DNA of 64,000 bases, taken from Dactylorhiza incarnata (Eukaryota; Streptophyta; Magnoliopsida; Asparagales; Orchidaceae). The notes beneath the pieces were generated by a model. It saw nothing but the letters and a program-made list of their open reading frames with translations. It did not search any database and was not told where the DNA came from. Positions 14,929 to 63,879 of the stretch are shown here, piece after piece. The DNA lies in contig JAWHQI010000079.1 in assembly GCA_033032865.1 (NCBI GenBank), forward strand, positions 9,800,501 through 9,864,500. The letters are read 5' to 3'. A program made the translations under genes and the position numbers. The first letter of the stretch is position 1; each line of letters opens with the position of its first letter.

Positions 14929-15119
14929 ATTCGTCAAATGGCGAGTGGCGTTCGACGAATGTATAGCTTCGTTCGACAAATTCTTCTCAGCAGACTGAAG
15001 AATTATAGCCAGTTCCAGCGCTCGACATTCTCTGAGCAGCGTTCGACAAATGGCAAGCAGCGTTCGATGAATTCCAGCCAGAGCTCGACAAATTCTATAT
15101 TAAAGCTCAATTCGACAAA
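14929..15119. repeat. TTCGACGAAT-type motif cluster, copia A 5' LTR
   Basis: At least eight variants of GTTCGACAAAT, GTTCGACGAAT, GCTCGACA and ATTCGTCAAAT lie within 190 bp. The core TCGA is self-complementary. The 3' LTR has the same array at 39756-39946. Further clusters of the same motif are inside the element at 18180-18350 and 36293-36434. Confidence 0.85.
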
Positions 15120-15455
15120 TACACGTCCAGATTAGTTATATCAGTTATTTTGTCAACTCTCTGAACACAGATCGACGACCTTAACGGATCTATTCAAGTA
15201 CTTTTGGACGTATTCAGTCAGTTTAGTAAGGACTTCTTATTCATTTATTATATTCTTTTATTCCTTCTATTCCAAGACAAGAATAGCCGTTGACATTTAA
15301 TGCTACGACATCTTTCACGACAAAGGAATCAAAAAGGACCTGCCAAAATCGTTATGGTGGCTGTTACAGTTCTAAGAAGGATTTAAGCCAGAATAATATA
15401 TTCCTTAAAAACATATGATTTGAATTTCAAATCAGAAAGCTATCAAAGAAGGAAG

Positions 15456-15462
15456 TATATAC
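15456..15462 (+). promoter_or_regulatory. Possible TATA box, copia A 5' LTR
   Basis: GAAGTATATACAAAAATAG is the best TATA-like element downstream of the motif cluster; the 3' LTR has it unchanged near 40285. Confidence 0.45.
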
Positions 15463-15935
15463 AAAAATAGTTGTACTCCTTTAGAGTGACACAGAATTCA
15501 CAGTTATTTTTCCAAGTCTCTCAGAAATACAGTTCCTTCAGAACAACAAGAATACAGAAGGATTTAGAGAAAGCAGCAGAAGAAGAAAACATATACAGAG
15601 AACATATACTTTCAGTCTTCTTCTTCCAAAAGGCACCATCTTCATCTCTCTGAGAACAACATTCATTCTCTCAGATCTGCTGCAATTTCAAATCTTCCAA
15701 AGTGCAACAACAATCTGAAGATTTACTTCTTCCAGATTAATCTGCTACAGAAGATTTTTGTTTTAGTGAAAGCTTCATCCTCAAGCTGTCAACAACTCCA
15801 ACAGACAGGGGGAGCTTTCATCCTCAACATCCTTTGTCTTCTCTCAGAAATATTGATAGAGAAGAACACTCTAAACCTTCTTTCCTTATCTTGTACAGGG
15901 TTAATTCTCCCTTCAAAAGTTTACACAGTGGTGGC

Positions 15936-16080
15936 AAGACACCTTATCAAAAAATCCTTGTGTGGTTTTTAAGCACCTTATCAAAAGCTTATTGGTGTGT
16001 GGACACCTTATCAAAAAACCCCTGGTCTTGAGCACCTTATCAAAAGCTCTGTGGTGTGTGGACACCTTATCAAAAACTCC
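15936..16080 (+). repeat. CACCTTATCAAAA short repeats in copia A LTR
   Basis: ACACCTTATCAAAAA or GCACCTTATCAAAAG occurs five times in both LTRs (second set 40776-40912). Short frames across them are chance. Confidence 0.8.
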
Positions 16081-16346
16081 TAGTGGATGTCCTACCAGCT
16101 GTGGTAGAAGAGTAGACGTACCCAGATTTATTGGGGAACGACTATAATTCCTTGTGTCCCCTGTGCTTGTGATTTTTCTGTATTGTTTCTGTGCTGTGTG
16201 CTTTCTTTATTCAAATTATATAACACACACTGCATTACACATATATATACATCAGTATTTTAATTCCGCTTTAAAAACTAATAAAAAGTTTTAATACTCT
16301 ATTCACCCCCCCTCTAGAGTAACTTAATATCCAACCTCCACTTTCA

Positions 16347-16364
16347 ATTAGTATCAGAGGCAGG
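16347..16364 (+). other. Primer binding site, copia A
   Basis: ATTAGTATCAGAGGCAGG follows the LTR and is a two- to three-mismatch form of the iMet primer site TTGGTATCAGAGC. Confidence 0.75.
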
Positions 16365-17574: not shown

Positions 17575-18239
17575 TGGCCATTTATGACTCAGACAATGAG
17601 TCAGGACATGCTTCTTCATCCAGCTCTAATGATGATGAAGAAGAGAAGAATTTCTGCATGATGGCAATCAATGCCTCAGCCAACAATTCTGATGAAGAAA
17701 AATCAGAATCAGAAGCAGAAGATGATGCTGATCAGGTAATACCTAACTTTGATTTTACTTCCATTGAATTCAAGGATGAATTCAATGTTCTTTGCCTAGA
17801 CTTAATTAAATCTGAGAAGGAAATAATCTCACTCAGACTTAAGCTAGCTGAAATGAATAACTTAAGTGAAGAAAATGCTACTCTTAAGAAAGAGTTGGCA
17901 GCCTCCAGAGAACATACTATTCTCATTGAGAATAAATTATTTGAGGCCAAGTGATTTGAAGAATCCATAAATGGGAGAAGTATCAAACTGATGAACATCA
18001 CAAGCACTGTCAATGCTAGACTCAATAACAAACTGGGCTTGGGTGCTTCATCAAGTGAGCCACCTCTAATTAAGAAAAACATCCTCTCTACACCCATAAA
18101 ATTCGTCTCTGCTAAAGGCAAACAGGTTACTGAAGTCAATAAAGATGTTTCAAGCAAGAATATTAAGAATAAAAGAATTCAGAAGAATTCGTCGAATGGA
18201 GATCGACAAAAAGACTTCAATTTGTCAAACGGAGATTGA
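17574..18239 (+). pseudogene. Copia A gag-pol continuation, acidic coiled-coil linker (broken)
   Basis: The frame 17574-17954 is acidic and Ser-rich (SGHASSSSSNDDEEEKN), then a Leu-heptad coiled coil (LRLKLAEMNNLSEENATLKKEL). Copia elements of this type have such a stretch between the knuckle and protease. It ends in TGA; a second piece (17991-18239) carries on with further stops. It runs into the TTTGTCGA motif cluster. Confidence 0.7.
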
Positions 18240-18350
18240 TGAAAATTGAGAACAGACTTTCAGTATAGTTATCATATGGATGGCGCTCGACAAAATCATG
18301 CACATTCGTCGAACGGCGGTCGACGAATTTACCCAAATTTGTCGAACAGA
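18180..18350. repeat. TTTGTCGA/TCGACAAA motif cluster at copia A gag/pol junction
   Basis: AATTCGTCGAATGG, AGATCGACAAAA, TTTGTCAAACGGAG, GCTCGACAAAAT, ATTCGTCGAACG, GGTCGACGAATTT and TTTGTCGAAC occur here. Pairs such as ATTCGTCGA and TCGACGAAT face each other across a GC-rich spacer. The cluster precedes protease by about 200 bp and an acceptor-like TCATTGCAG at 18545-18553. Confidence 0.85.
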
Positions 18351-18980: not shown

Positions 18981-19243
18981 TGATGAGTCCTCATCATATA
19001 CACTTTTATGGACTCATCTGGGCCGTTTAGTTAGTCATTTCACTGCACTTTAGCCCTGTTTTAGTTTATATTTGATATTCTATGCTAGGTGCACTTTTAG
19101 GCCTATTTTGGTGTGATTTCATTGCTATCTTCATTAGTAGTTTTCATGTGCGGTTAAGTGTCACTTTCAGTGGCTAGATTAGTGTTGTACGCTGGAACAG
19201 TAGTCGTGCAGGTGTTCCCGGTGCAATTCTGCACAGGAACACT

Positions 19244-19602
19244 GCGCACGATCACTGGTTCTACTGCGCACGACCACTGGTCGTGCGCCACTGATCGTGC
19301 GCATTTAATGCCTTTTTCATAAGTTCTGTTTGGAGCAGTGCGCACGTCTATCGATGCTAGTGCGCACGACCACCGGTCGTGCGCCACTGCTCGTGCGCAC
19401 TTATCATTAAAATTCTGAGTTCTGTTTGCTGTATTGCGCACGACCACCGACGATAGTGCGCACGACCACCGGTCGTGCGCCACTGGTCGTGCGAACATTT
19501 TATTTTATAATTTCTGTCTTTGCAGGTTCCGTCCAGGCAGAGCGCACGATCACAGGATTCTAATGCGCACGACCGCTGGTCGTGCGCCACTGACCGTGCG
19601 CA
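19244..19602. repeat. Palindromic GCGCACGACCA/TGGTCGTGCGC cluster in solo LTR
   Basis: Four or five rounds of GCGCACGACCA followed within 1-6 bases by its complement TGGTCGTGCGC, plus a CACTG(A/C)TCGTGCGCA form, at roughly 75-110 bp spacing. The array ends 18 bp before the TATA box. The same arms occur in the Tekay LTRs. Confidence 0.9.
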
Positions 19603-19620
19603 CTGTTTAATTCTAGCGCC

Positions 19621-19628
19621 TATAAAAT
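19621..19628 (+). promoter_or_regulatory. TATA box of solo LTR
   Basis: GCCTATAAAATCC is a strong plant TATA box, immediately downstream of the motif cluster. Confidence 0.75.
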
Positions 19629-20244
19629 CCGCTGCTCGCGATTTAGGTCGGATCGCTCGCCCGACTCCGCCGTTTTCTGCTCCCGTCCGCCTGGTTTCGC
19701 TCCTCCATCGCCGCCCACCTTAGGGAGGATCTCCGGGCAAGCTTTCAACGCCAAATCTTCGCCGGAGTTTCCTCTCGGCCTCCTCCTTCATCCAAGAGCT
19801 CCAAAGGAAGACCTAGCCGCTATCTCCATCGAGCAAGAGGAAGTTTGCAACCTCTACCGGATCGTGACACGAAGAAGACGGGTCCATTGGAGAGTCGTGA
19901 CAGCTCTCTCTACCCCGGACGTAGTTGTGGACCGAGCTTGGACGCGGATTGACAACCCGGCGATTCCAACCGTGAATCTTCAACGAGCCTTCGGATTCGG
20001 TCGATTTCTTGCCTTGTTCTCCTTTTATTGATTGTTGTAATAGCTAGATCTTGTATATTTTGATGAAGTTGCACTTGAACTAGTTTGTATTTCCATATAT
20101 TTCATATGATTGTGAAATATTTGTTATTTGTGTGCTTGAGGAGCGCCACCATCCATTTTCCATCCCACGATCGTGTCCGGTGCCGCACTAGCAATTGCTA
20201 GTGGCGTGCTTGTCGAAGAGGTGCTTGCGACCCTCATCCCGTTA

Positions 20245-20447
20245 GCCTACTCGTCCACCCGCCTACCGAAGCGTGGCATCGCGGCCCGTATTCCATCCCG
20301 CCTAACGAAGCAGCGCGCTCAAGGCCTGCATAGTTCGATCCAATAGCCTACTCGTCCATCCGCCTACCGAAGCGTGGCATCGCGGCCCGTATTCCATCCC
20401 GCCTTACGAAGCAGCGCGCTCAAGGCCTGCATTGTTCAATTCCGCTT
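20245..20447 (+). repeat. 101-bp tandem duplication in solo LTR
   Basis: The unit starting GCCTACTCGTCCA repeats from 20245 to 20346 with few changes (CCGAAGCGTGGCATCGCGG, then AAGCAGCGCGCTCAAGGCC). A partial third copy follows to about 20500. Confidence 0.85.
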
Positions 20448-20786
20448 GCCTTCTCGTCCATCCGCCCTTGCGACGCAGCGCGCTCAAGGCCTGCCTAGTC
20501 TCCATCCCGCCAAGCGAAGCATTGCATAGCGGCATTGCATAGGAGTAGTTGATAGCTTTTATTTTATTTTCCAAAAGCCAACCCAACTCCCCCGCATTCC
20601 ATCCGACGTTAAGGACTTCAATCTCAAGTCCTACCTCGAACGTTAACTCCACCTTACTGTGTTCCTTGAGAGATTCGATACTCGGGGATTACTCCTCGTT
20701 TTATATTACTTGAACGATCGGTACACTGCCGTTTCGTGTCGCAGTCGAGCTACCGCCTATAGCGGTGTGTGAGATTTGCGCCATCA

Positions 20787-22505: not shown

Positions 22506-22997
22506 TGTTGGTGCCAAAAATGGTACCTCCAAAATTCACACTAAAAGGGATGGGAGAAAACTGCGAAGTGCAGGTTACTAAGACAGAAGATGCTGGAAAC
22601 AAAAGGAAAAACGATCACGAAATGGCGATCACGAAGAAATGAGACCGCTTACACAGGTTGTAAGCTGGAGCCTCGGAGCCAAAAGTGCTTTTCTGGTACC
22701 GCTACCCCTCTATTTATAGACGAGGGGGCTGCCCAAACGGGCAGAACTGAAAACTACGGGCTGCCCGGGGTACAGGAGAGCCGGGGCAGGGAAATGGAGT
22801 ACAAATAACAAAAATAACAAAAACAAGAAAAACGACCAGACCGCTTGAGTCGGCGATCTCGCACCATCTTGATCGCTGGGTACTTGGAAAATCAGACCAG
22901 GCCGAAGGCTGGCGATCTCGGCGATCACCTAACTTGAGACCGCTGAGACCAGGAAAAACGAACGACGAGAGGAGGTCGCGGGCTTTCTGGGCAAACA
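22506..22997 (-). mobile_element. Tat element 3' LTR
   Basis: 492 bp, starting TGTTTGCCCAG and ending CACCAACA in element orientation. Motifs GGTCTCAGCGGTCTC, GATCGCCGAGATCGCC and AAGCGGTCTGG lie upstream of TATAAATA (complement of 22711-22718). Confidence 0.95.
22711..22718 (-). promoter_or_regulatory. TATA box of Tat 3' LTR
   Basis: The minus strand reads GTCTATAAATAGAGG, downstream of the GAGACC/GATCGC motifs. The 5' LTR has the same at 34915-34922. Confidence 0.8.
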
Positions 22998-23012
22998 TAA
23001 TCCCCGCACATT
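22998..23012 (-). other. Polypurine tract of Tat element
   Basis: Next to the 3' LTR the minus strand reads AATGTGCGGGGATTA, the short G-rich tract usual for Tat-type gypsy. Confidence 0.7.
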
Positions 23013-23088
23013 TTTAAGTTGCACCTGGAACTTCAAAAATGTAAGCTTTGACCGCTGAGACCGCGACCACCATTAATGCGGCTTGGTC

Positions 23089-23096
23089 TATAAATA
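23089..23096 (+). promoter_or_regulatory. TATA box of antisense gene 1
   Basis: TATAAATA lies 98 bp before the ATG of antisense gene 1, with GACCGCTGAGACCGCGACC just upstream. It points opposite to the element's own transcription. Confidence 0.65.
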
Positions 23097-23186
23097 CCGG
23101 CTGAAAACTTCATTTTGCAAGATATTGTGATACTCCAAACTTTGAGCGGTCTTTGATAATTGAGCAGGTGCGACCTTCTTGCAAAG

Positions 23187-25417
23187 ATGACCATGCTCGA
23201 TCTCTTAAAAGCTCTCCCATCGAAAGCGAACTCTCCTGGAAAAAAGGAAAGTGTCAGCTCAAAGAAAGGAAAGAAGGCGCCGAAGATCTTAACAAAAGTG
23301 AGCACTTCAAAGGAGACCGCCCGATCTCCGATAAAGAAAACTGAGCTTCCTGAGGGCTTGATTGTGCCGGTCTCTGTTGCTTCTGACCCGTCTAATACTT
23401 CTTCAGATCCTGTATGGAAATTGTCTGACTTCTCCATTTCTTTTAATTGTCAGAAATCCCTGGAGGCACTGGGTCAGACATCTTCCAAGCTTCCTGAGAC
23501 CGTCTCCACCGAGGTCATCCTGGCTGGGCTGCGTCAGAAGGGGGCTGAGGCCGAATCCTTGAGGCAGAAGATCGCTGACCAGGAGATCGTTGCAAAGGGC
23601 AAGAAGAGAAAAAATACAAGTCCATCTAGCTTGACTTATAAGAGGAGCAGAAGAAATGAGGAAGGAAAAGATGTGACCGCCATGGAGGCGACTAGATTTT
23701 CTGAATCCATCGACCTGGAAGACTCCGCTGAGTTTCAGAAGGTGAATGCTAAGGGCGATCTCCCCTTCCCTCCCGCGGTCTCAACCTTACCAAGAGAGGA
23801 TGATTCTGGATTAATCGCCTACCTTGATGAGGTTTCTTCTAACAATTCATCTTTTTCATCATTGCAGGTGTTGGATCCCCTAGAGGCTTCAGCTCTCAGA
23901 AATGCTGCCGTTGACGAGGAGATCGCGGACAGGGAGAAGGAGATCGCCGACGCAGCGATCAAGGCAAAAGAAGAGGAAAGGAAAAAGATTGAAATGGAAG
24001 AAATGGTGAAGAGGAGGAAAGAAAAAGAGGTAGAGGAACAGAGGAAAAAAGAAGAGAGTGAAAAGGAGAAAGAAGAAAAAGATAAGAAAGAAAAGAGGGA
24101 GAAGAAGGAGAAGAAAAAGAGGGAGGACGAGGAGAAGAAGAAAGACAAGGAGAAGAAAGAGAGAAAGGAAAGAGAGGAAGAGGAGAAGAGGAGAGAGGCG
24201 GCTAAGTCCGTCGAGGAGGAGAAGAAGGAGGCGGTCAGAGTTGCTGAGGAGAAAGCGGCTCTGATCGCTGAGGAGAGGAAGAAAGAAGCGGTCAGGGTTG
24301 CTGAGGAAAAGGCGGCCCTGATCGCTGAAGAGAGGGAAAAGGCTGAGGTCTTGAAAACTTCGGACAAAAACGGTGAGGAGATCGCAGAGAAGCTGCAGAT
24401 CGCTAAGGAGAAAGCTGTACTTTCTAGCTGTCTCCCGGATGATTCTCTTCAGGGAGATCGCTCGAACAAGGCTGCAGCAGATCGTGCGGCGGCGGTCTCG
24501 ATTTCACGAGCTGGTAAGAATAAAATGATTCTCCAGTCAGCTGAGTTCCTTCCATTACCTACAGTTTGTTTTGCTTCTCCTGAAAGAAAACACGATATCG
24601 TTTTTATTGAGACCGATGATATTCTCTTAAGTAACGAAGAATTAAAAAGGAGAAGAAAAGAGGGAGAAAAAGCGCAGAAAAGAGGTTTGGAAAGAATGGA
24701 TCTGGAGCGCTTAAGGGGATTAGATCGTCTTTCTCTAACTGCAGATCCCGCGGTCACTAAAGATATCAGAAGAGCTTTACGTGACTGCGGTCTCGACTTC
24801 TTTCCAAGTACTCTTTCTGTTTATTTAAAAAGCTTATCTGATCATATGCTCATGATTGACATAACCCATCTCCTATGACCGCAGACAACAAAAATGCTGA
24901 GATCGAGGAGGGAGAACTTCCTCAGCCCATCGAGATCTCCCCTCAGTTAACCAACATCCTTAACCCCATGTTTGAGGATGTTCGTTCTATGCTGATGAGG
25001 GAGCGGACTCAGAACGATCAGATCCGTGATCTCGAAGAAAGATTGCGTTCCAATGAGAAGAGGATTTGTGAGGAATGCGATCTGAGGGTTGTCGAGATCG
25101 CGCGAGCTCTGAAGAAGGCTGAAAAAGAGGCTGAATACTATAGGGGGAAAGCTACGGCGCTGTCCGCGGAAAATGAGAGCCTGAGGAGCGGTCACGGAAA
25201 GATGCTGATGCGACCGGGTACCTCTAGCGATCATCCAGCGGAGAGACCGCAACCTGAAATTGTACTGATCCCCATGGAGCAGGTGGACAAAGAAATGTCG
25301 AAAATCCACCGGTCTGCAATGCTGGCTAATCACAGCCTGGTGTCGGTTATGGCTGCAGTGAACGATATGCAAGATGTCGCAGCTCATGTAGGAAGAAACA
25401 TGCCTCCCAGGAGATGA
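23187..25417 (+). CDS. Antisense gene 1 of Tat element, coiled-coil protein (two exons)
   Basis: Coding parts 23187-24807 and 24885-25417 give about 717 residues if the 77-bp intron is removed. From ATG (AAAGATGACC) the start is basic and Ser/Pro-rich (KKGKKAPKIL). A stretch rich in Lys and Glu, about residues 250-400, is a long single helix or coiled coil (EKEIADAAIKAKEEERKK, then two copies of AVRVAEEKAALIAEE). The part after the intron has EIEEGELPQPIEI and a second coiled coil with a heptad pattern. No enzyme motif is seen. Read without splicing, the two frames overlap at ATGA. The sequence is full of GAGACCG and GCGATC motifs. Function unknown; a structural or nuclear role is a guess. 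Confidence 0.6.
24808..24884 (+). other. Candidate intron of antisense gene 1 (77 bp)
   Basis: Donor CCAA|GTACTC at 24808, acceptor ACCGCAG|AC ending 24884, AT-rich inside, with the frame stop TGA near its end. Exon 1 ends in phase 1 and exon 2 enters the frame of the downstream ORF exactly. Confidence 0.5.
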
Positions 25418-25428
25418 ACATTTAACTT

Positions 25429-25444
25429 GAGACCGAGCGGTCTC
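25429..25444. repeat. 16-bp palindrome after antisense gene 1
   Basis: GAGACCGAGCGGTCTC (7-bp arms, 2-bp loop) starts 12 bp after the stop codon. The identical 16-mer follows antisense gene 2 at 27520. Confidence 0.9.
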
Positions 25445-25713
25445 TAGATTTAAACAATATGTTTTGTAAAATTTTACTGTTATTTTTCTATATATTTGTG
25501 GCTGTTTTGATTTTAATGTTTTGTGCGGTCTTGATTTGTTAAGTTCTGATCTCTTTATGCCTGGGTTGCTTGTATTGCTGCTGTGTTTTTTATTGATTGA
25601 GATCGCCAACTATAGTATGCTGTCATATAACTTTGCATAGGTCGAGCGGTCTGAACATGTTTTGGCTGGGCGGTCTTCAAGATGTAATGATTACGAAATG
25701 ACCCTTCGTCTTC

Positions 25714-25722
25714 TATAAATAG
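25714..25722 (+). promoter_or_regulatory. TATA box of antisense gene 2
   Basis: TATAAATAG, 79 bp before ATG 25793. GAGCGGTCTGAAC and GGGCGGTCTTCAA lie 40-75 bp upstream. Confidence 0.65.
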
Positions 25723-25756
25723 CCGTCTTCATGACCTTTATTTTACGCTTTCTTGA

Positions 25757-27488
25757 ATGCGCTCTAAACACCGATCTCATCGATCGCTAAAAATGGTGTC
25801 CGCTCGTGCTTCTTCTACCACCATCTTTCTGAATGCCGATCACAAACAAGGTCGTCTATCAAAGGATGAATATATCGAGTTTATAAAGAAATATATGATC
25901 CAAACTCAGGTAGTTGTGAGACCGCCAACTGAACAAGAAAGGTTGAACTTTGCGGAGGAGAAAAAGTTTATTATTCCCATCGATCACTTTGAAAATGGGT
26001 TGAGGATTCCCCTCCCATGGGAATGGCTTGAGATCCTGAATTATTACGGCTTCGTGCTTGCCCAGCTGGCCCCGAACTCCACCGGCCTAGTTAATGTCTT
26101 CATCAATTACTTGAGATCGGAAAGAGTGAAGTTTACAATGAATTTGTTCCGCGCAACCTTCACCGCAAAGATCTTGAAGGAAGGCAGAAAGAAGGAAGAG
26201 TTCAAAGGGTTGATGTACTTTTCAGCAGACGGAATAAATATCCTGAACCTTCCAAATAAAATCTCTTTTTGGACAGAGAGATTTCTTGTCTTTAAAGGTG
26301 ACCTTGGCGGTCTCAAAAACTCGCCTTCTCCGCGACCTGACAGTATTTTTAAGAAGATAAAAGCGGTCTCAGAAGAGGAGCTGAAAATCCTGGCTTTCTT
26401 GGCGGGCAAGAGGATCGATCTTGTTCATTATCTAGCGATCTGGCCCGAGATCGCCGAGATTATTCCGGCTGAAAGTAAGCTTTTCTTGCGGTCTCGAGTA
26501 ATTTCCTTTCATACCTTTTGTATGCTTTCCTAACTTTTTCCCGCTCTTTAGCGACCTTTGCGGTCCCTGTTCAAGATCCTATCTCCCCAGCTGCAGAGGT
26601 TCTTACACAGAGGGAGAGGAGGCTGAAGCGTGAGGCCGACGTGTTCGGCACTACCTCTGAGACCGTCGAGCGAGATTTCCCTTTGATCGGTTTCAAAAGA
26701 AGAATGAAGGATATCAAAGGAAAACCCCTCCTCAAATGGGCGGCCAAAGGAAAGTCTGTGAAGGTGTCCACTGATCTGCCCCTGTGGAGCGGAAAGGTGA
26801 CCCGTCACGCATATGCGGTCACTTCGGCTCTGTATGGGAAAAAGAATACAAATGAAATACTGAATATAGAGACCGATGCGCTCCCCGACCTCTGTGCCCA
26901 AGTGACCGCTAGAAGTACAATCTTAAATCACCATATGGGGCGGTCTCTTCGCAGCGCTCTGGATGAAATAACTGCCTTGCAAGAAGAAAGAAAAGTGAGA
27001 ATTTTATTTATATCTTACGAACGCGTTACCTATGATCGCGCGGTCTAACATATATCTCTTTTTTTTTGTAGCAATTTTAAAAAGCAGCTTATGACCCTGA
27101 AAATCCAACTTTTCAGAGGGCTATGATGCATCACATTAAAGAGACCGCCGACCAGGTGCTGAACGAGGTTCGAGGCCGAGGTGGATTCACCGAAGAATAT
27201 AAGGATGTTACGTTTGCCGATCTCTTCCCTGACGTGGCACAGAGGATTGAAGAGCAATCTGCAACTGCTGAAGAGACCGCGGATGTTGCTGATGAGACCG
27301 CTGGCCAAGACGAAGATGTTGTGATCGAAGATGAAGAAAGCGGAAGCCGCTATACCCTGGGTCTGGATTCCAGTTTGAGCTCAAGCTCTGGATCTAGAAT
27401 TCCAGGGAAAAGCTTAGAAGAATCTTCCGCAGAAACTGATTCTTCTTCTTCAAGCGAGCGGTCTTCTAAGAGATCAAAGAGAGAGTGA
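25757..27488 (+). CDS. Antisense gene 2 of Tat element, plant-transposon-domain protein (three exons)
   Basis: Exons 25757-26474, 26552-26994 and 27117-27488 join in frame to about 510 residues. ATG 25793 (AAAAATGG) has the better start context. Residues 60-200 resemble the plant 'putative gypsy type transposon' domain (Pfam Transposase_28): FENGLRIPLPWEWLEILNYY, LAQLAPNS, then a Trp-bearing block ISFWTERFLVFKGDL. Exon 2 is basic (FKRRMKDIKGKPLLKW). Exon 3 is acidic, then Ser-rich, ending in a basic SKRSKRE that could be a nuclear signal. The family name is a legacy; no transposase activity is known. Role in the element is unknown. Identification is by eye. Confidence 0.65.
26475..26551 (+). 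other. Candidate intron 1 of antisense gene 2 (77 bp)
   Basis: Donor GAAA|GTAAGC at 26475, branch-like TCCTAACTT, pyrimidine run, acceptor CTCTTTAG|CG ending 26551. Removing it joins two frames in phase 1 without a stop. This is the clearest of the introns in the window. Confidence 0.7.
26995..27116 (+). other. Candidate intron 2 of antisense gene 2 (122 bp)
   Basis: Donor AAAA|GTGAGA at 26995 and acceptor CAACTTTTCAG|AG ending 27116 keep the frame open. An earlier acceptor (TTTTTGTAG, 27071) looks strong but brings in a TAA at 27078, so the later one is preferred. Confidence 0.55.
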
Positions 27489-27519
27489 ATTGTACAAACT
27501 TTCCTTTTTTCCCCTTTTG

Positions 27520-27535
27520 GAGACCGAGCGGTCTC
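27520..27535. repeat. 16-bp palindrome after antisense gene 2
   Basis: GAGACCGAGCGGTCTC, identical to 25429-25444, 31 bp after the stop codon. Confidence 0.9.
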
Positions 27536-28251
27536 GTTGTAATTGAAAATTCAGAATATATATAAAAATTAGATTCTGTTATGTTGTCTGTGGATGAGTT
27601 TATTTTTGATGCATATATTTGTTCCTCTGAGTTTGAACTCGACATTCGATCTCAATGCCTTAGGCTTGTTACAATTTTATATCATCGTTAAAGGATTTCA
27701 GGTGGCGATCTCTTGGAAAAAACAAAAAGGATCTTGAAAGAAAGACTAATACTTTGTATAAATAAAAATACTCTGCGATCTCGAGATAATCAGATCATTG
27801 AAAGACATTCAGTAACTCGACTGTGATCAGAAAACCAACTTATTTGCAATAGTCATGCGGTCTCACATTATACGAATCGCAACATAAGGAAACTACAATC
27901 CGAAGATGATTTGAAGAAATTAAACTTTTGGGTGTTCGGTGCCCAAATGACTGGAAATCCGTCTGACGACCCCTTTGATAACCAAAACTATTACTTGAAA
28001 AGAAAAATGATAACTCTTCATGAATCTCCAATTTAGCGATCACATTATATTCAGACCGCCCTTTTTGAAGAAAAATCCCAACTCACTTGATGGGAAACAG
28101 AGCATCAAGATTATTCCATGTAACTTTGAATAACGGGGAATACCAGAATCTCGATCTTACTGAGACCGGGTCGAGCTCTGTCAAGTCAGCATAAGAGCTT
28201 TCTGAATAGCGACCTCAATTGTCCTGAAAAAGTCATGTCCGGCGATCGTAA

Positions 28252-28575
28252 ATGACTCATCACTCTTTGGAGAAAGTTGGAAAGAAAAACATGCGGTCTT
28301 ACAAATTTCTGACCGCCGGATCCCAGTACAAAGGGATGAATAAGATTTTTCTTTCTGAAGTAAGAAGATATGAAAATGGGATCTCTAAGAATGATCCAAA
28401 AGGAATGTGTGGTCATGCCGCGGAGGCTATACCGCCATTGCCTCTCTTTTTAAACAAAGGATTACTGAGTTTACTACAAACATGCCAATCTAAGGTTCAG
28501 GCGACGGTCACGGATGTTCCTGACCGCCCCTTAACCACGCTTCAACGAGTATTCGAGAGTTACAGATCAAAATGA
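28252..28575 (+). CDS. Hypothetical 107-aa ORF in Tat 3' region
   Basis: It opens with ATG after GATCGTAA and runs to TGA. It is basic at the start (KVGKKNMRSYKFL) and Leu-rich later. I recognise no family. It includes the first copy of the 24-bp direct repeat and lacks a TATA box of its own. It may be chance or a further exon. Confidence 0.2.
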   Translation: MTHHSLEKVGKKNMRSYKFLTAGSQYKGMNKIFLSEVRRYENGISKNDPKGMCGHAAEAIPPLPLFLNKGLLSLLQTCQSKVQATVTDVPDRPLTTLQRVFESYRSK

Positions 28576-28615
28576 TCGGTAGGGCAGGTATGGTCATGCC
28601 GCGGAGGCTATACCG
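28411..28615 (+). repeat. 24-bp direct repeat pair in Tat 3' region
   Basis: A perfect 24-mer beginning GGTCATGCCGCGG and ending CTATACCG occurs at 28411-28434 and 28592-28615. Its centre CCGCGG is palindromic. Confidence 0.85.
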
Positions 28616-29023
28616 ACATTGCTTTCCCTGAAAGATCATTAAGATCATAACAATGTCCTTCTTAATGCATGACAGAGCTGAGCCAGCCACCTAGACCCCC
28701 TTGAAATGCTGAGGTGTGCCAGATGTCAGCAAGGACCCGGTATCCTAAACTTCCACCACTCAAGCTTGGCGAGCTACTGCTACACAGATTCGAAATCTCC
28801 CCGACATCTGTGGTCCTGGCAGGATTACACGTCGAGCTAACAAGTCGAGGGGGAAGATAGTAGGATCCGTCGATGTCTCATTTGACAGGTTTTTGGTTTT
28901 TCAAAAAATAACATGCTTAAAACTTGTCACCCATCGCTCATATTGCGAATGCTTTGATAATACATGCATGACATTTGAGAGGGAAAAAATGAGAAAAAGA
29001 ATGAGTGAATCGGATACGAACAT

Positions 29024-36263: not shown

Positions 36264-36292
36264 AAATTAATATTTCTATTTATCCCCTAAAT

Positions 36293-47237: not shown

Positions 47238-47512
47238 ATTTTGTTAAGTAGTTAACGCCCCGCATTAAGTAGTTAACGCCCCGCATTAAGTAGTTAATGC
47301 CCTGCGTTAACCTATAGTTGAAGAGGGATGATGTCGAGAAGGGAATAACATGGAGAAGATATTGCGTCAAGAAGCAAGTGACAACACCAGTGTTGACACT
47401 TAACGCATGCATTGAGTCCACAAACTGCCACGTTCTCGATGGTTGCACGATGTCAGCGGTTGCTATACACAATCACTAACGCTGGCGTTAAATCTCTTAA
47501 CGCCATGTGTTA
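47238..47512. repeat. TTAACGCC/GGCGTTAA motif cluster, B 5' LTR
   Basis: Three tandem copies of TAAGTAGTTAACGCCCCGCAT (last one drifted) are followed by ACTAACGCTGGCGTTAAA and CTTAACGCCATGTGTTAG. The cluster stops 12 bp before TATTTAAAG (47524-47532). A second cluster is at 48149-48190. Confidence 0.85.
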
Positions 47513-47523
47513 GCTCTCGTGCC

Positions 47524-49964: not shown

Positions 49965-50010
49965 GCTATCGCTAGGCGTTAAATCCTAACGTTGGCGTTA
50001 GCAATAAATC
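49965..50010. repeat. GGCGTTA motif cluster at B gag/pol junction
   Basis: TCGCTAGGCGTTAAATCC and TAACGTTGGCGTTAGC lie just after gag and 300 bp before protease, a place equivalent to the copia A cluster at 18180-18350. Confidence 0.75.
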
Positions 50011-53318: not shown

Positions 53319-54545
53319 CTTTTTAGAGAATCATCATTAATCAGCATCCTGTTCATAGGGTTATTTAACTATAATACCTGCACAATATAAACACAAGCAA
53401 GATCAAATGCATAATGTGATTTGTTATTCTCAAACTAAGAGATGTGGAACAGAAGCTCCAGCAATCTCCCCCTTTTGATAATAACGGATCCATTAATAAG
53501 AAATAAAACACAATTAGAGTAGTGTTTATAGTATATGTTAAGCGTGATAATCATGCATACTCCCCCTACATGAATGCATTTTCTAATGTACTCCCCCTAA
53601 ATCATAGATTTCTCTAATTTATTTCTTCAATTTATTCTCCCCCTTTTGTTATAATCAAAAGGAGGTGGGTTAGAGTAGTTGCAATATGAAATGTTATGCA
53701 TTAAGTAGAAATAATAGCAACTTTTTTGAAAAATAGCAATAGCAATTTGTAACGTATTTTAGAAATTGTAAGTACAAAATATAATAAGCGTTTAAATCAA
53801 ATAAGTAGATGTTTTGAAATTTTAGAAACAAAAGTTGCAAGTTCATTTGTAATTTGTAATAAAAAGTAGCAAGCAAGATTATAAAAATATCAAGTAAAGA
53901 TATTTTTACAATGTAAATAAATTTGCATTTCAAGTATGCACAAACATTGTAGAGATCATGCTTTGCTATCTAGTGCATTTAATCATGATTTTAGAGAATA
54001 ATGTAGATAAGCTTTAGGTCCAATTCTCATGAGTGGAAGCATTATAAATGATAATGATGTGTTTAATAAAGGTGTTTCGTCAAAGTATACAAGTGTATAA
54101 ATCAAACCACATGATAGTATGTAATTTTAAGAACATAACTTGAATTGAACATAAATAACTTTACTTCCACAAATTTCAATGCACATAAAGATTTTCATTT
54201 TTAAGAGAAGTGGTCAAAATTCTTAGAGGCATGTAAAAAAAATTCTACACATGTAATCTACAACCAAATTCTTTGCATATTTTAAAATATTATTCAAGGC
54301 ATGATAAAAGCAAAACATTGTTTCTAAGAAACTTGAAGGTTTAAATTAAATATTGTAAATAATCTTTAAACAATATATATAATCATCCTTGAAATAAGCA
54401 GTTAAGCACATATTAAATTTTTTGTTTTTAATTTTTGGAAGTAAATAACAAAAAAAAAATAAAAAAACTGAGAATTAAAACAAAATACTGCAATAAAATA
54501 ATACCAATAATATTTCAATAAAACAAAATTTTTTTGTAGCATAGA

Positions 54546-55725: not shown

Positions 55726-56620
55726 GTATATTGAGCGTATGTGCTTTGAATTAACTTTCCTCAGTTGTGTTGGACTCGTATAGTTGATACGAGTGCAACA
55801 GAACTTGTTTCATTCTGATCCACGGTCGTTTAGAGTAAACGACCATTTTGAGTATCGTAGTGTGTCACGACGATGAAGTTTTAGTATATTGAGTATATAT
55901 GCTCCGAATCGACTTCCATCAGTTGCATTAGACTCACATAGTTGAGACGAGTGTAACAGAACGTTTTTCACCTTGATCCGTGATCATTTAGAGAAAATGA
56001 CCATTTTGAGTATCGTAGTGCGTCACGACGACGATGTTTTAGTATATTGAGCATATGTGCTCCGAATTGACTTTTGTCAGTTGCATTAGACTCGTATAGT
56101 TGATATGAGTGCAATGGAACATGTTTCATCTTGATCTGAGGTTGTTGAGAGAAAAAAAACCATTTTGAGTATCATTGTGCGTCACGACAATATCGTTTTA
56201 GTATATTGAGCATACGTGCTCCGAATCAACTTCAGTCAGTTGCATTAGACTCGTATAGTTGATACGAGTGCAACAGAGCTTGTTTCGCCTCGATCCAAGG
56301 TAATTTAGAGAAAACAACCATTTTGAGTATATTAGCATGTCACGACGACGCCATTTTAGTATATTGAACATACGATCTCTGAATCGACTTTTGTAAGTTG
56401 CATTAGACACGTATAGTTGATATGAGTGCAATAGAACTCGTTTCGTCTTGATCTAAGGTCATTTAGAGAAAACGAACATTTTGAGTATCATAGCGCATCA
56501 CGACAACACAATTTTAGTATATTAAGATAATGAACTCAAAATTGACTCAAATCAGTTGCAGTGGACTCGTATGGATATGAGAGCAACATAATTTGTTACG
56601 CTCAATTATGACACCATTTG
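55726..56620 (+). repeat. 158-bp tandem array in E LTR U3
   Basis: AGTATATTGAGCATA starts units at 55726, 55884, 56042, 56201, 56359 and 56517, spaced 158-159 bp. Each has TCAGTTGCATTAGACTCGTA, AACGACCATTTTGAGTATC and CGTCACGACGA. The last unit is degenerate. The unit length is near that of a nucleosome. Confidence 0.9.
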
Positions 56621-57117: not shown

Positions 57118-58586
57118 AACCCCTCCAGCTTTTCTTCAGCTCTCAGCCCTCTTTCCAAGCTCAGTCGAGCCCAAGCTAGCCCCTGCTGGAGCCCCACCTC
57201 GCCGGAAAATGCATGTCGAGCTCCACCACCCTCCACCACCTTCCATGGTGGATCTCACCGAGAGCTCCCGGAGGCCTCCAAACCAGGTGGGGCCTCCTCC
57301 TCTCCTTCCTCCCTACCTTTTGGATGTGTCGCATGTGAAGTACTATCTCCAGAGCGCCGCCACCAGCATCCGCTCTCCATTCTGAAAAAAATAGCTCCGG
57401 CGGTGGCTGGCGCGGTAGGCCACTGGACCACCTCCGGAGGGAGTACCGACTCCTGTAAGTCGGTTGGGGGTGAAGCAACGACCAGCCGGTGGCCGGCCAC
57501 TGGCGAAAAGAGCTCGTAAGGGGGGCGTACAAGAAACTCTATTTTTTCTATAAAATTTTATAATTGTTTTTATTATAGCTTTTGTTTTTTCTGGGCCTTA
57601 TTTGAAGCCTAAATGCAAAAACGTTGAATATGAAAGTCGTGCATATTAGTGAGTAGCATCTCCAAAACTTTTCTGAGATTCTTATGTCATAATTTAGTAT
57701 TTTAATAATTAAAATACAGAGATATTTGAGGTTTTTGAATTAACAGAGACTCTTAATTCTGAGGAAACAATTCTGGAAAATTCGAGGTAATGACCAAGGC
57801 TTAGTGTTACCTTGTGTAATTATTTGAGATTTTTTAACAATTATGTGGCATTTTGGCGATTTAATTAATATAGTTCTCTTTATTATATAAATTCCAGGGA
57901 AATATTTGCTCGATTAAAACTTCTCAAATTTTTATATGGTGATAATTAAAGGATGACAAAGCCCTTAAAAATTATCAGATTTTATTTGGCAATCATGATA
58001 TTTTTAAAGATTTAAATGAGGTAGAAATTACAGGTTTAATAATATCAGAGGCTTTTAACTTTGGTATACAAATCTAACAAAAATCTCTAGATGACAATGG
58101 ATCTGGTGTTTACCAACTAGAAAAGTTTAGTGATTTATTGAAGGGTTATTTATTTTTGAGAAATTAATTTGTCGTCTCTTTATTATTGTAAATAATCTAG
58201 AGAGCTCCTACTTGGCAAAATGAGTCTGACAAAATTATGGAAGCCTCCTTGTTGTAGTATAAACCTTTATTCAAAATTTGGCACTTTTTGGATTAACAAA
58301 AGTATTTTTGGTATTTTAATATAAGGGTTTATTCGAGGCGAATAATTTATCAGAGGCCAAAACAAGCTTGAAATCATTTGAGAAAATTATGGGGATTCTG
58401 TTATGGCAAATACAACCTCGGGTTCAAGTTTCTTAAATTTCAAACTCACTTTGGTATTTGTTGAATAAAAGAGGTTTAAATCAGAAGAATTAATATCGGT
58501 TGTAATACAAAAACATGATTCGCTCTGGTGCAAGAAATTGAGGTTACATGGTAAAATACTAAGAACTCGCCACAGAATTGTGAACT

Positions 58587-58740
58587 TGCCTCCTTGGAGC
58601 GGAGAAGCCTCCTATGAACGAAGTTGCCTCCTTGTAACGTAGAAACCTTATATGGACAGAGTTGCCTCCTTGAAAGAGAGAAGCCTCCTGGGAACGGAGA
58701 GAAGAACTGAACTCACCTCCCTAAATGGAGAGGAAACTAC
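58587..58740 (+). repeat. About 40-bp tandem repeat in E 3' LTR
   Basis: TTGCCTCCTTGGAGCGGAG variants, as at 1227-1405. Confidence 0.75.
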
Positions 58741-59998
58741 AAAATGAGATAATTCTCATTCTGTTCTTTATTCAGTAATTCAGTTACTGCATTACATTTC
58801 AATACTGCTCTTATTTCAGTTCAACATTCTATTTACAGCGGTTCATTTCAGTACTTTAATTTTTGTACTTTCCTTAGAGCGGCTTTCCTTTACTGCACTT
58901 TAATTACTGCAATTTACTAATGATTTCATTCCCGCACTTTTATTTTGGGTCTCTCTCGGATAAGCAGTTTATCTGGTTGAGCATTAGTTAGGGATTACTT
59001 GGAGATGATTTGTTCCTCCAAGGCTAGCCCTAAATAATAAGCTCCCTTGATTGCTATGCTCCTTGTCTAAAGTTGAGCAGTACGATCAAGCTCTACGGTC
59101 GCCTGCCCGAATTATTTCATGTAAAGTAAGGCAAACCACCACAGACCCGGATGGTACCAGTTGGTTGCTTTATTGAAATGATTGTAAATTGCTTGCAATG
59201 AAAAGTGGCGGGTCGGTCATGCCCGCAAATTGTTTGTACCGGTATGAGAAGGTTGATGCCTCTAAGAAAAAGGGAGAAGTGCACCCAGGAAGCTCGACCA
59301 TATTTTTTGCCTCGCTGGGTCCCTCCACTGGATTGCCGGATAACAGATATCATCGGATGTCTCTCACATCTAGGAGTATACCTTCATATACACCGGGGCC
59401 TGGGTTGTGCGGTGCGGCCATACCCAGAAGTGGCAAAACCGGCCACTGTCACCGATGGCCGCATCGGTGAGGACTGCAGTGTTCGCTACCTTGCTGTAAG
59501 AGAAGCGGTCAAACTATGCCGACATAGGGTGTTGTTGCAGGTTGCGAACACTTGTGTGATTGTGCGCTAGCTAGTAGAGATCAAATATTACTGTTTAATT
59601 AATTATTGCATTCCAGTTACTACTGTTGTGATTGTTCAGCTTGCTCCTATCTTACTACATGTTATACATATATATACTACTACTAACATCGTTGCTTCAT
59701 CTATTGCTATTTGTTAGTGGCTCACTCTCGCCCCCAAGCCTTAGGGATCTTGGGGAGGAGGTGTAAATCCACTTAGTCCATGACTAACGGTTATTGAATA
59801 ACCATTCATAGGAGATGGAGCAGCGCGGAGTTCATTTAGCGCGTGAGAGCATACCTGCCTTAGAGCCTGCACGAGAAGATGCACCAACATCGTCTCTTGA
59901 CTTTAGAGACGTGAGCCAATAATACATAGATGCAGTGAGAGTATAATGTAGTGGTTTAGCACTATTAGGGCATGATTTATAAACAGTTGGCTTTGGCC

Positions 59999-59999
<1 letters not shown>

Positions 60000-60029
<30 letters not shown>

Positions 60030-60057
60030 TTGTGTGTTTGTGTGCGTGTGTGTGTGT
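60000..60057. repeat. (TA)n(TG)n microsatellite in E 3' LTR
   Basis: TA run then interrupted TG run; order is reversed relative to 2671-2707. Confidence 0.9.
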
Positions 60058-60399
60058 TTTGGTATCTGATTTGCTTCCGCATTGCTGATCTGATGTAATG
60101 ATTGACCAAAGCCTAACAAGGAGATCATTCTACGCTGGAGAGTGGGAATGTTGCCACTCAGAAAGCATAGGGTGTCCGTCTTGGGCGGTATGGACTGTCT
60201 CCGACCTAACCCGGTTGCGGTTAGGGGAGGGGGTTCATATAACTTAGACCAAGTACTTACTCATGATATATGATCTATGACAAACTGGCATTTATCTTGA
60301 AGACTCTATTTGGAAAAATCAAGGAGATTTACAGAATTCAGGAAGCAGAGAAAAACAGGTTGCTATTATGTCAAAATCGATGAGATGGCCTGACGATCG

Positions 60400-60592
60400 A
60401 ACCAAAAGTATCGATAGGAAGATAAGTCAACATGAAAAATTGACTAGACAGACTATCTATTCTGAAGTCACTTATTTTCTTCCAAGGAAAAATCGACTAG
60501 ACGGACTATATATTCTGCAAGTCGACTAGACAGGGAATCGACTGTATTACTGTCGATCAACGGGATGATCTTCATGTCGACTGGACAGTCTT
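60400..60592. repeat. TCGACTAGAC motif cluster in F
   Basis: TTGACTAGACAGACTAT, ATCGACTAGACGGACTAT, GTCGACTAGACAGGG, ATCGACTGTATTACTGTCGAT and GTCGACTGGACAGTC. The same GTCGACTAGA core recurs in G. Confidence 0.8.
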
Positions 60593-60883
60593 CAAATCAT
60601 CCAGATTTCTTCTAAGTGATTGCAGAGTGCGTGTTATTAATATATTTCCAATTTCTTCATGCAAATCTAGACGCACTTCATGGGTACACTTATAGAATTC
60701 CTTAATGAATTAAAATCGTTGGAGGAATGCTTATGGAATCATTTACTGAATTATTACCATTGGAAGAATTTCCAATTTAAGTCAAATCAGTGTATTCCTT
60801 TTTGATCATATTCGAAAATTCAAATTCAGTTTTAATTGTCACATCCCTTGATTTTTGTCCTTTCCTTTTCAAGTATGCATCAC

Positions 60884-60891
60884 TATAAAAG
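60884..60891 (+). promoter_or_regulatory. TATA box of F
   Basis: TCACTATAAAAGGCG, about 300 bp downstream of the motif cluster. Confidence 0.65.
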
Positions 60892-61236
60892 GCGAAAGAT
60901 TATTCTTGTTGCTGCTAATGATCTGAGGAATACAAATTCGAGAGTAATTTCTTAAGTCAATTATTCTACTACCTCTCAAGAGAAAATTCAGTACAACAGT
61001 TTTTATCTCTCAAGAGTACCACCGATCCTGATCCTAAAGAAGTCTTCAACTTTCAACCAACTATAATGGATTTTTGTTGCTCATTTCCTTGATCCAGATC
61101 TGTTCTCACAAGTTTTATTCTACTATAAATCAGGGAAGAAGAAGCTTGCTGCTAGGTTTCTATTGAAAACTCAAGATCCATGTCTTAATCTTTTTAAGTC
61201 CACTCTTGTAAAAACTATATTTCTATAAATAGTTAT

Positions 61237-61368
61237 GTAAGATCTTTGTGATCTGAGTGTAAGATCTTTGTGATATGAGTGTAAGATCTTAGTGATCTGA
61301 GTGTAAGATCTTTTTGATTTGAGTGTAAGATCTTTATGATCTGAGTGTATGATCATTGTGGTCTGAGG
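61237..61368 (+). repeat. 22-bp tandem repeat in F
   Basis: GTAAGATCTTTGTGATCTGA starts at 61237, 61259, 61281, 61303, 61325 and 61347, exactly 22 bp apart, with 1-3 changes per unit. Confidence 0.95.
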
Positions 61369-61650
61369 TAGATCTATTTGTAGATCTGAGTGTATGTCTT
61401 GTATTGTAAAAGACTGAGGTAGGAACTCTATGCGAGTTCTGAGTTTTTGGAGGAGTTATGCCTTATCAAGCACACTGCTTGAAAGGTGTCGGGAAAGTGG
61501 ATGTACCCAATTCTTGGGGAACCACAATAAATCCCTATGTGCTTTACTGTGGTTGTTTGTTCTGTGATTTTATTTTAAAAAGATCTGATAAATCACAAAT
61601 CCACTGTTCACCCACCCTCTTGGTGTGATCTTAGTCATTCCTCTAGAATA

Positions 61651-63879
61651 ACACTTATATACTAAAAAGTCTATGCAAATCGACTAGAAAGTCTGTGCAT
61701 GTCGACTAGAAGAAATCAACATGTAGAGTAGTGGTCTAGTCGACATAAATTATATGTCATCTTGAAGGAAGCAAGCCATGTCAACTAGAGGTCTCTACAT
61801 AAGCTGCATATCGCATAGAGCTCTAGTCGACATAAGCAGTTATCATCTAGAAGAAGAAAATCATCTTATCGACTAGAGGTCTAGCCAACATAAGATGTAT
61901 GTCGCCTAATCTCTAGTCGACATACCTAACAGGCATACGATGTTCTGTTTCGCAATTTATTCTATCAAATCTTCTTGGAACTCATGCCTATTGGATAGGA
62001 TTTGTTTATATACTGATGAGGATAAGACTGTAGTTCATTTTGCCTTAGCTTTTCACTCTCCAAGATCGAGATAAAAGAAAGTCGAAGGAGAAGAAGGGTT
62101 CTTTCATCCATTGTTGGAGCTTCGGAGCTCCGAATAGCGAGTCGAGTCTAGATCCACGGAGAGGAATCCACAATGGTCATTTCCATCCGACTTAAACCTT
62201 GGATTCATGTCACCAAAGAGATCTACAATGGTAGCAATCCTTGTCCCCGGTCTTAGGACATGTTTGGTCCTTTCATACACTTTATATGCTTGCATAGGGT
62301 TTGTATTCTCCTCTAATTAGTGGAGTGCATGACTCTCTTTGGTTCTTTAGAACCCCAGGTAGATTGTCTCCGTCCCAAACATTTATTGCATATAAAAGTC
62401 TGGTAGGCGTACTAATTTAGGCATTTTGTGTAAAGTATACTCATGTCCGTTAGCCCGGATGGGTGATAATTGATTGTGATGTTTCATTTAGGTTAAACCT
62501 AAAATGCATGTTGGAGAATGACTCAGTGGAATATATCATCGTATCACGGGACTTGAGATTTAGGTGTCTCTTGGAGTACCTAACGGAAGCCTCATGATTG
62601 TGATGTGGTTGAATGCAAACCTTCACCATAAATTCATAGTGGAGTTAACTTGGACCTCCTATGCTGTTTGTTCTTGCGAAGCCTAAATCTTCTTGTATGG
62701 ATTAGGTGTGTTGCTAGATATTTTGGTAGCACTTTTATGTGTTAAATAATGTGATTGAATGTAAACCTTCACCACAGATTTGTAGTGGAGTTGACTTGGA
62801 CCTCCACATCGGTTGTGCTTGTGAAGCTTATGTCCTCTTGTATGGAATATGTGCGTAGCTAGATATTCTGGTAGCACTTGTATGTGTTAAATACTTACGG
62901 GCCGAGGTGAAGCCATACTTGCATCGTTGCTAGTTGATCACGATGACCTGAGCATGGGCAAATTTGATCGAAACCCATTTCCATGCAGATCGGTGCGAGG
63001 TCTTAACCTCTTGTACGTCGTATGTTCATGGGAGAGTCCGTGGAAGGTATGTTAGACTAGAATGACAAAAGCTTATTTCCCACCTAAGTTTGCATAAGTT
63101 AGGGTGGTGTAGGTACTCATGAGAGAGTACATTGGAAGCATTCCTTGAGTGCATGAAATGTGTGGTCGTGAGTACCCACGTTTATGATATGATGAATTGA
63201 TGTTATGTTAGCCTCATGAGTGCTTCTTAGGCTTTTGTGGGGAACCTCCGGGTGAAACCAACTGACATCATTTGCATACCTAGGTTCCCCTTTCTTGTTG
63301 CTCAACCTAGAAGATTAATTGTGTTTGAAACCTCACCTTGTGTAGAGTAGATGCACTTTTTTTTATATTACATATTGCATGTGCGGCTTCCTTGCAGGTG
63401 ACCGGTGCCCCGCCCCTTAGCCGTTTAGAATGGTTGGGGGGTGGGATCGTTACACTATTTTGGTCAGCTTATAGCTGACCCTCGTTTACCTCTTATTTAT
63501 GGATGGTGCAGGTGTTGGTAAGCCGAGAGGGAAATAGCGGATTGAAGTCCAAAGCTTTGTTGTCCCTCGATGGCTAGATAATTTAATACTTTTCATGTGT
63601 TACCGACCTACATGTTGATGTATGCTTGTCATAATTTAGAGTTTGGGACATTTGATGAATGTAAAGCCTTTAGTCCATTAATCAATTTGGTTAACACTCC
63701 AGAGTATGTGGACATTCTATTATATTTGCTTTTAAAACAAGCTTCTGTTGTGACGTCTTTATTCTGATTAGAGCATGTTTCTGTTTTTCATTTTACTAAT
63801 GTCTAGCTTGTGTGTTAAATATGATGTGGGGTCCCGGCCGGACATATTGTTATTTTTTTTGTATAGGCAGGGTGTTAAA
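61651..63879 (+). mobile_element. Gypsy element G, 5' LTR (Tekay-related)
   Basis: From about 62085 it aligns with the reverse complement of the 3425-5405 LTR: GGAGCTTCGGAGCTCCG, CCCAGGTAGATTGTCTCCGTCC, ATTTAGGCATTTTGTGT, GGTCAGCTTATAGCTGACC, TGTGGGGTCCCGGCCGGAC. It ends GGGTGTTA before a primer-like site. The first 430 bp differ and carry GTCGACTAGA motifs instead of GCGCACGA. The start is uncertain; AATAACACTT at 61648 may be a decayed TGTAACACCC. Confidence 0.7.
61680..61930. repeat. TCGACTAGA/TCTAGTCGA motif cluster in G LTR
   Basis: ATCGACTAGAAAGTC, GTCGACTAGAAG, GGTCTAGTCGACATAA, TCAACTAGAGGTCT, GCTCTAGTCGACATAAG, ATCGACTAGAGGTCTAG and CTCTAGTCGACATAC. Opposed arms alternate. It takes the place that GCGCACGA motifs have in the related Tekay LTR. 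Confidence 0.85.

Follow-up and report, generated by a model that had tools for sequence, protein, structure and literature searches.

The 64,000-nucleotide stretch of Dactylorhiza incarnata DNA analyzed here (contig JAWHQI010000079.1; the whole stretch is called the window below) is a nest of plant long terminal repeat (LTR) retrotransposons. These were named E1 to E8, and their lineage names were based on domains, polypurine tracts (PPTs) and layout, with trees not part of the basis. Short CpG-containing words, mostly specific to one element, recur in these retrotransposons beyond chance, and in most LTRs they lie between the LTR start and the TATA box. E2, in which Retrotran_gag_2 and RVT_2 (the Ty1/copia gag and reverse transcriptase) were found, was inserted in an LTR of E4 and was itself entered by two other elements:

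14787 to 41180, plus strand: E2, Sirevirus-like copia element with gag, RVT_2 and an env-like open reading frame (ORF); target duplication CGTCA; E6 and E3 nested inside
18981 to 20786, plus strand: E6, solo LTR inserted in E2; 5-bp target duplication GAGAT
22506 to 35201, minus strand: E3, Retand-like gypsy element inserted in E2; target duplication CATAC

The word clusters and the boxes beside them were located as follows:

5162 to 5316, minus strand: U3 cluster of the E1 3' LTR (LTR about 3425-5405), two units of about 96 bp, arms running A, A, A', A' in each (GCGCACGACCA / GATCGTGCGC)
11895 to 12049, minus strand: E1 cluster in the second LTR copy (about 10158-12138), identical to that of the first
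14070 to 14294, plus strand: words of the E4 5' LTR, GGCGGTAGC type, direct repeats, stopping 9 bp ahead of the TATA box at 14303
14930 to 15180, plus strand: cluster of the E2 5' LTR, TTTGTCGA, mostly in a single orientation
18188 to 18348, plus strand: E2 cluster at the gag-protease junction
19243 to 19606, plus strand: U3 cluster of E6, four units of about 96 bp, arm order as in E1
19621 to 19627, plus strand: TATA box of E6
36292 to 36480, plus strand: E2 cluster after pol and ahead of the env-like ORF (pre-env), dyads with a 7-bp gap
39757 to 40007, plus strand: E2 3' LTR counterpart of the 5' LTR cluster
46542 to 46686, plus strand: decayed counterpart in the E4 3' LTR; TATA box at 46692
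47251 to 47515, plus strand: U3 words of E5, GGCGTTA / TAACGCC; TATTTAA at 47524
48150 to 48187, plus strand: words of the E5 5' LTR, close to its 3' end
49975 to 50001, plus strand: E5 words between gag and protease
60493 to 60585, plus strand: words of E8 (Sirevirus-like LTR), TCGACTAGA/GTCGACT, direct repeats
61680 to 61921, plus strand: cluster of TCGACTAGA / TCTAGTCGA, directly 5' of the E1-homologous part of LTR E7

Inverted and direct 7-mer pairs were counted in 15 candidate and eight control stretches and compared with 1000 dinucleotide shuffles per stretch. Inverted pairs were in excess (p ≤ 0.005) in seven of the 15 candidates, namely both LTR copies of E1 (29 and 28 pairs vs shuffle means of 2.3 and 2.4), E6 (242 vs 7.9), E7 (49 vs 3.5), the U3 of E5 (19 vs 2.3) and the two internal clusters of E2 (12 vs 1.9 at the gag-protease junction, 13 vs 3.3 ahead of env), and the U5 tail of E5 gave p = 0.015. 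No significant excess was obtained for the 5' and 3' LTRs of E2 (p = 0.227 and 0.052), the LTRs of E3 (0.49 and 0.55) and E4 (0.11 and 0.10), or E8 (0.21). Direct pairs reached p ≤ 0.02 in 14 of the 15 candidates, and in the LTRs of E2, E3, E4 and E8 direct repetition alone was significant. The initial annotation had given seven or more elements a private motif of two complementary arms each; the repeated CpG words were recovered, but strong self-complementarity was restricted to the seven stretches named above. Paired arms in every listed word were rejected, several words being direct repeats without significant arms.

The top CpG 7-mer was significant (p ≤ 0.015, 200 shuffles) in 10 of the 12 stretches taken from LTRs or from outside pol, the exceptions being E8 and the E4 3' LTR, and in none of five controls. 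When 637 windows of 400 bp were scanned with 40 shuffles each, 94 exceeded all of their own shuffles. The E6 cluster ranked far on top (217 inverted pairs vs a mean of 7.4), followed by the cluster at 61.6-62.0 kb and E1, while nearly CpG-free stretches, such as a 22-bp array at 61.2 kb, also scored high. That array (61236-61394, seven copies, AGATCT-like arms) lies inside LTR E8.

Exact copies in the whole window (forward/reverse complement) numbered 4/10 for GCGCACGACCA, 4/11 for TTTGTCGA, 22/11 for GAGACCG, 1/3 for GCTAACGCC, 3/1 for GGCGGTAGC and 5/3 for TCGACTAGA. AGCGCATGCGCT, which is its own complement and had been listed as a repeated word, was present in one place alone. As degenerate patterns, GCACGAY had 38 of its 41 window matches in E1 and E6, TYGTCGA 23 of 34 in E2, GCGTTA 20 of 26 in E5, and GGYGGTAGC four of five in E4, and CGACTAG had just eight of 16 in E7 and E8. 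The words are thus mostly element-specific, as had been claimed, but not strictly private, since one is common to E1 and E6 and another to the clusters at 60.5 and 61.7-61.9 kb. These results indicated that element-specific CpG words recur in the window more often than chance allows.

The shared layout was clearest between E1 and E6. Both had convergent half-site spacings of 5, 19 and 27 bp and tandem spacings of 7 and 15 bp, and they were linked by a BLAST match of 146 bp (70%, E = 3e-7), while nothing else in the E6 LTR matched that of E1 meaningfully (a single 10-bp match, E = 0.71). Outside the arms, the linkers were modestly alike (three non-independent E6 linkers gave p = 0.0025, 0.0115 and 0.077). 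The E1 cluster stretches had a CpG observed/expected ratio of 1.35-1.37 and formed a CpG-rich block in the 5' part of the LTR; these clusters (5.2-5.3 and 11.9-12.0 kb) fall outside the interval covered by the initial annotation. In E7, the words differed from those of E1 and lay 5' of its E1-homologous part, and 60-bp identity between the two LTRs was mostly 0.5-0.9 on the 3' side of the clusters and 0.32-0.46 across them. U3 cassettes may have been replaced as whole units, one copy per family having been seen. The cluster at 61680-61921 may be part of E7 or of a remnant next to E8, and because of this the TCGACTAGA common to E8 was not counted as exchange between superfamilies.

The integrase end of E1 had a clear SH3_Tf2-1 domain and a Chromo match of just E = 0.044, under the Pfam cut-off. 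At 3425-12985, the integrase C-terminus plus LTR of E1 occurs twice in succession (98.9% identity across 2750 bp), a pattern like that left by unequal recombination, with one LTR common to a complete and a truncated copy. In the protein search with E1 pol, 120 matches were listed of 7975 candidates scored; every named species was a plant, and the top identities among the matches listed, 74-80%, belonged to the orchid Platanthera zijinensis. Pattern and protein scans of viral contigs, and of genome contigs, yielded no relatives.

The U3 of E4 and E5 differed in a similar manner. Their R and U5 regions could be aligned and their U3 words differed, although GGCGGTAGC and GGCGTTAGC are one base apart. 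At 47240 the E4 3' LTR, its 3' end missing, adjoins the E5 5' LTR, its 5' end missing, which is probably a deletion fusing two related LTRs. Further E5 words followed pol and stood near 54.55 kb, ahead of another copy of the same LTR end. After E5 pol (53466-53644), the PPT octamer AGGGGGAG was seen four times on the minus strand, beside sequence inverted relative to the E4 end.

How far a TATA-like box lies from the last word was measured for nine clusters, and in five of them the box was 6-35 bp downstream: 6 bp in the E4 3' LTR, 9 bp in the E4 5' LTR, 19 bp in both E6 and E5, and 35 bp ahead of the E2 env-like ORF, the patterns having been loosened by eye for the E4 3' LTR and the E2 pre-env cluster. 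The proposed ending of U3 clusters 5-20 bp before TATA held at 14303, 19621 and 47524, but distances elsewhere reached 301 bp. A layout common to gypsy and copia elements, as the initial annotation had described, was seen.

In E2 the word occurred in three locations, namely the LTR, the gag-protease junction and the interval between pol and the env-like ORF. All four close convergent pairs in the internal clusters had the 7-bp gap. Downstream of the pre-env cluster were found:

36515 to 36521, plus strand: TATATAA, ahead of an ATG at 36614
36614 to 39385, plus strand: E2 env-like reading frame, with one in-frame stop at 37064-37066

The interval 36515-36614 is a candidate internal promoter for the env-like ORF. 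Alternatively, the ORF might be expressed from a spliced RNA, as the bases preceding the ATG resemble a splice acceptor. A sigma-70-type promoter scan of 36280-36620, a type of scan unsuited to plants, found none. The env-like ORF had no match at E ≤ 0.001 in the protein search, and a weak match to Transposase_32, a putative plant transposon protein, was noted at the start of the frame (36614-37063, E = 0.016, under the cut-off). The authors of PMC2829016 could not conclusively identify an internal env promoter in Sireviruses.

To compare decay, CpG sites unshared between the two LTR copies of an element were counted inside and outside the clusters. The values were 0/24 inside vs 13/92 outside in E1 and 2/19 vs 1/9 in E2, both of which are young. 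In the older LTR pair of E4 they were 9/16 vs 22/30. CpG in the E1 cluster leans toward protection, and E4 shows plain CpG decay. The claim that CpG stays sharp in the clusters failed for E4, and sharp CpGs alone were rejected as a sign of selection. The clusters might also be a by-product, in which slippage and gene conversion multiply short CpG-rich units in a fast-changing U3 with no present function. The tandem units, the youth of E1 and E2, the decay of the E4 cluster at the pace of its surroundings and the fast modular change of U3 known for Tnt1 (PMC1838419) all agree with this explanation. We nevertheless regard it as rather unlikely, as the same word recurs at separate sites in E2 and in E5, one unit is present in both E1 and the otherwise unalignable E6, and the 58 words of E3 are dispersed and non-tandem.

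RNA folding was evaluated in eight segments. The z-scores were -5.8 and -5.0 in E6, -4.9 in E7, -7.6 in E5 and -3.8 in the E2 pre-env cluster, and -1.8 at the E2 gag-protease junction, +0.4 in the E2 LTR and 0.0 in E4. Hairpins may form in part of the clusters and are not general to them. Palindromes of maize Sireviruses are described as small-RNA hotspots (PMC5311732, PMC10760457), and a 2016 paper in Genome Research reportedly dealt with these palindromes and with small RNAs. PMC2829016 mentions that Sireviruses have a conserved inverted repeat where gag meets pol. An explanation at the RNA level, by which transcripts of the 3' U3 and internal clusters would fold into hairpins that serve packaging or gag/pol recoding or that the host cuts into small RNAs, would account for the strongly folding segments. 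It appears unlikely, however, because folding is not general and hairpins need neither fixed short gaps nor direct copies.

We give a probability of about 0.5 to the reading that the U3 and pre-env clusters are binding-site arrays, predicted to act as a promoter-proximal enhancer/CpG-island cassette. The words would be read by a sequence-specific, probably dimeric DNA-binding protein, for which a host transcription factor would be the simplest candidate, and words would change within families when a whole cassette is replaced or re-amplified. The words exceed what composition gives, most LTRs carry them after the LTR start and ahead of TATA, half-sites have fixed layouts, the E2 word is reused ahead of a second TATA-like box, and one layout is present in E1 and E6. 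From these observations we infer protein binding, dimerization, activation and exchange between families. PMC2829016 proposed this mechanism for the repeated motifs of Sireviruses, and we widen it to gypsy LTRs. A dimeric host factor, anti-silencing and hairpin RNA, all suggested in the initial annotation, are possible, and its promoter modules are the best reading for most clusters, but GAGACCG is distributed quite differently.

Several results weigh against binding-site arrays. The arms were not significant in seven of the 15 stretches, and controls also showed an excess (inverted pairs at p = 0.014 and 0.032 in two of eight; direct pairs at p = 0.001 in three of eight and 0.045 in a fourth). 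The TATA distance was 85-87 bp in E7, 277 bp in the E2 5' LTR and 301 bp in E8, and the scan after the E1 cluster found no TATA-like box. The E4 cluster decays like its surroundings, and a single upstream promoter does not account for the words at the gag-protease junction or in the U5 of E5.

The promoter-array mechanism does not extend to the dispersed word of E3. GAGACCG had been described as a U3/TATA cluster; 32 of its 33 exact copies were instead dispersed through E3. With the degenerate word GAGAYCG, the one E3 copy had 58 sites, one of them in pol, vs seven in the other 51.3 kb of the window. With the 5' LTR copy excluded and 53 of the 58 sites retained, the density was 4.6-11.6 per kb in the 3' LTR, leader and 3' subregions vs 0.19 in pol. 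The region between pol and the 3' LTR (22998-29023, 6026 bp) had 25 copies of CGGTCTC on either strand, compared with a mean of 0.58 and a maximum of four in 200 shuffles. The sites were in mixed orientation (33 forward, 25 reverse) and had no flanking preference other than a C following the word. Spacing in the 3' region was evener than random (coefficient of variation 0.70 vs 0.97, fraction 0.009), and four of six convergent pairs within 40 bp had 2 bp between the halves. Two antisense ORFs were noted at 22998-26533, a charged, coiled-coil-like ORF of 572 aa (ORF572) and the following:

25757 to 26533, plus strand: antisense E3 ORF with Transposase_28 (TRP28, PF04195), E = 1.3e-8, above the cut-off

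The antisense TRP28 ORF and the long pol-3'LTR region fit Retand, in 97% of whose surveyed clusters TRP28 is present (PMC11963269). The E3 word, and perhaps that of the env-carrying Sirevirus, might be recognized by an extra protein of the element itself, which would activate or de-silence it in the manner of VANC. Besides the concentration, spacing and pair gap of the word, the TRP28 ORF itself, DNA binding predicted for this domain in Retand (PMC11963269) and the element-specific, mostly non-coding motifs of VANC (PMC5735166) speak for such a reader. However, 22 words cross the antisense ORFs (15 in ORF572 and seven in the TRP28 ORF) and seven of the eight forward words in ORF572 share one codon phase, both of which count against binding sites, and VANC motifs have a single orientation (PMC5735166). 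The protein search with the TRP28 ORF gave no homologue at E ≤ 0.001, and its single-sequence structure model was unusable (mean predicted local distance difference test score 37). We consider such a self-encoded reader very unlikely. Equally improbable in our estimation is a wider scheme in which GAGAYCG(C), present as single sites and as dyads with a 2-bp gap and avoiding pol, would be an element-wide address code, read by the antisense-encoded TRP28 to control or protect the element as an LTR-retrotransposon counterpart of VANC. The U3 and internal arrays of the Sirevirus-like and chromovirus-like neighbors would then follow this strategy in variant form, and families would trade cassettes.

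Promoter words specific to a family would reveal how related retrotransposons keep their regulation apart and escape shared silencing. If cassettes were exchanged between LTR families, promoters would evolve modularly, and if a Retand protein reads the private word, the role of TRP28 would be open to direct test. In sunflower, SIRE, Retand and other lineages have local decreases of CG methylation (PMC12844716), which are compatible with local protection and are not evidence for protection here.

Elsewhere in the window, a repeat without assignment, containing a 38-bp tandem array, was present in two copies (6-2894 and 57552-60242, 84-88% identical). A 158-bp tandem array of five copies at 55726-56523 had inverted arms such as ACTCGTAT/ATACGAGT.

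The initial annotation knew of no described system of this form, but such a system is described for copia Sireviruses (PMC2829016), and 5' CpG islands are described for gypsy Del elements (PMC4029996); the feature is real and mostly of an already described kind. Sirevirus LTRs have element-specific palindromic motifs forming CpG islands, with more copies 5' of the env-like gene; past the island, TATA follows at an average distance of 37 bp (PMC2829016). E2 resembles them in its element-specific, CpG-rich dyad motif in U3 and pre-env, followed by TATA, and E4, E5 and E8 look like members of the same group. E2 differs in its core, TCGA rather than CGG-CCG (one of 13 published motifs, Tnd-1, also does not have CGG-CCG), in LTR words of mostly one orientation, in a TATA distance of 277 bp in the LTR (it is 35 bp pre-env), and in the gag-protease cluster, which is not reported in the accessible text of PMC2829016. 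The PPT octamer, expected in several copies ahead of a Sirevirus 3' LTR, was found once ahead of the E2 3' LTR and three times ahead of that of E4.

Among gypsy elements, Del (Tekay) LTRs have variable CpG islands near the 5' end and better conserved downstream parts (PMC4029996), as in E1 and E7; unlike there, the block of E1 and E7 is built of a palindromic word, the term "palindrom" being absent from that paper. Retand resembles E3 in its antisense PF04195 ORF and its long pol-3'LTR region (2,933-6,566 bp; PMC11963269), a range that includes the 6026 bp of E3; the dispersed private word of E3 has no counterpart in the accessible account. In the open-licence literature, no paper was found on palindromic U3 cassettes in gypsy chromoviruses or on a dispersed private word in Retand. 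VANDAL/VANC has a short motif that crowds one element family and is scarce outside it, with which the 58 vs seven sites of the single E3 copy in this window may be compared, and E3 has a candidate self-encoded DNA-binding protein as a possible counterpart of VANC. VANDAL, however, is a DNA transposon with motifs in one orientation and mostly non-coding (PMC5735166), whereas E3 is an LTR retrotransposon with 22 words in two antisense ORFs and one in pol. Tnt1 (PMC1838419) parallels E1 vs E7 and E4 vs E5 as related LTRs with a changed U3 and the rest conserved; unlike in Tnt1, one cassette is also found in the otherwise unalignable LTR E6. Added here are this four-arm cassette of about 96 bp in the gypsy LTR E1 and the solo LTR E6, the recurrence of the E2 and E5 words where gag meets the protease, and, in E3, a dispersed word together with an antisense TRP28 ORF.

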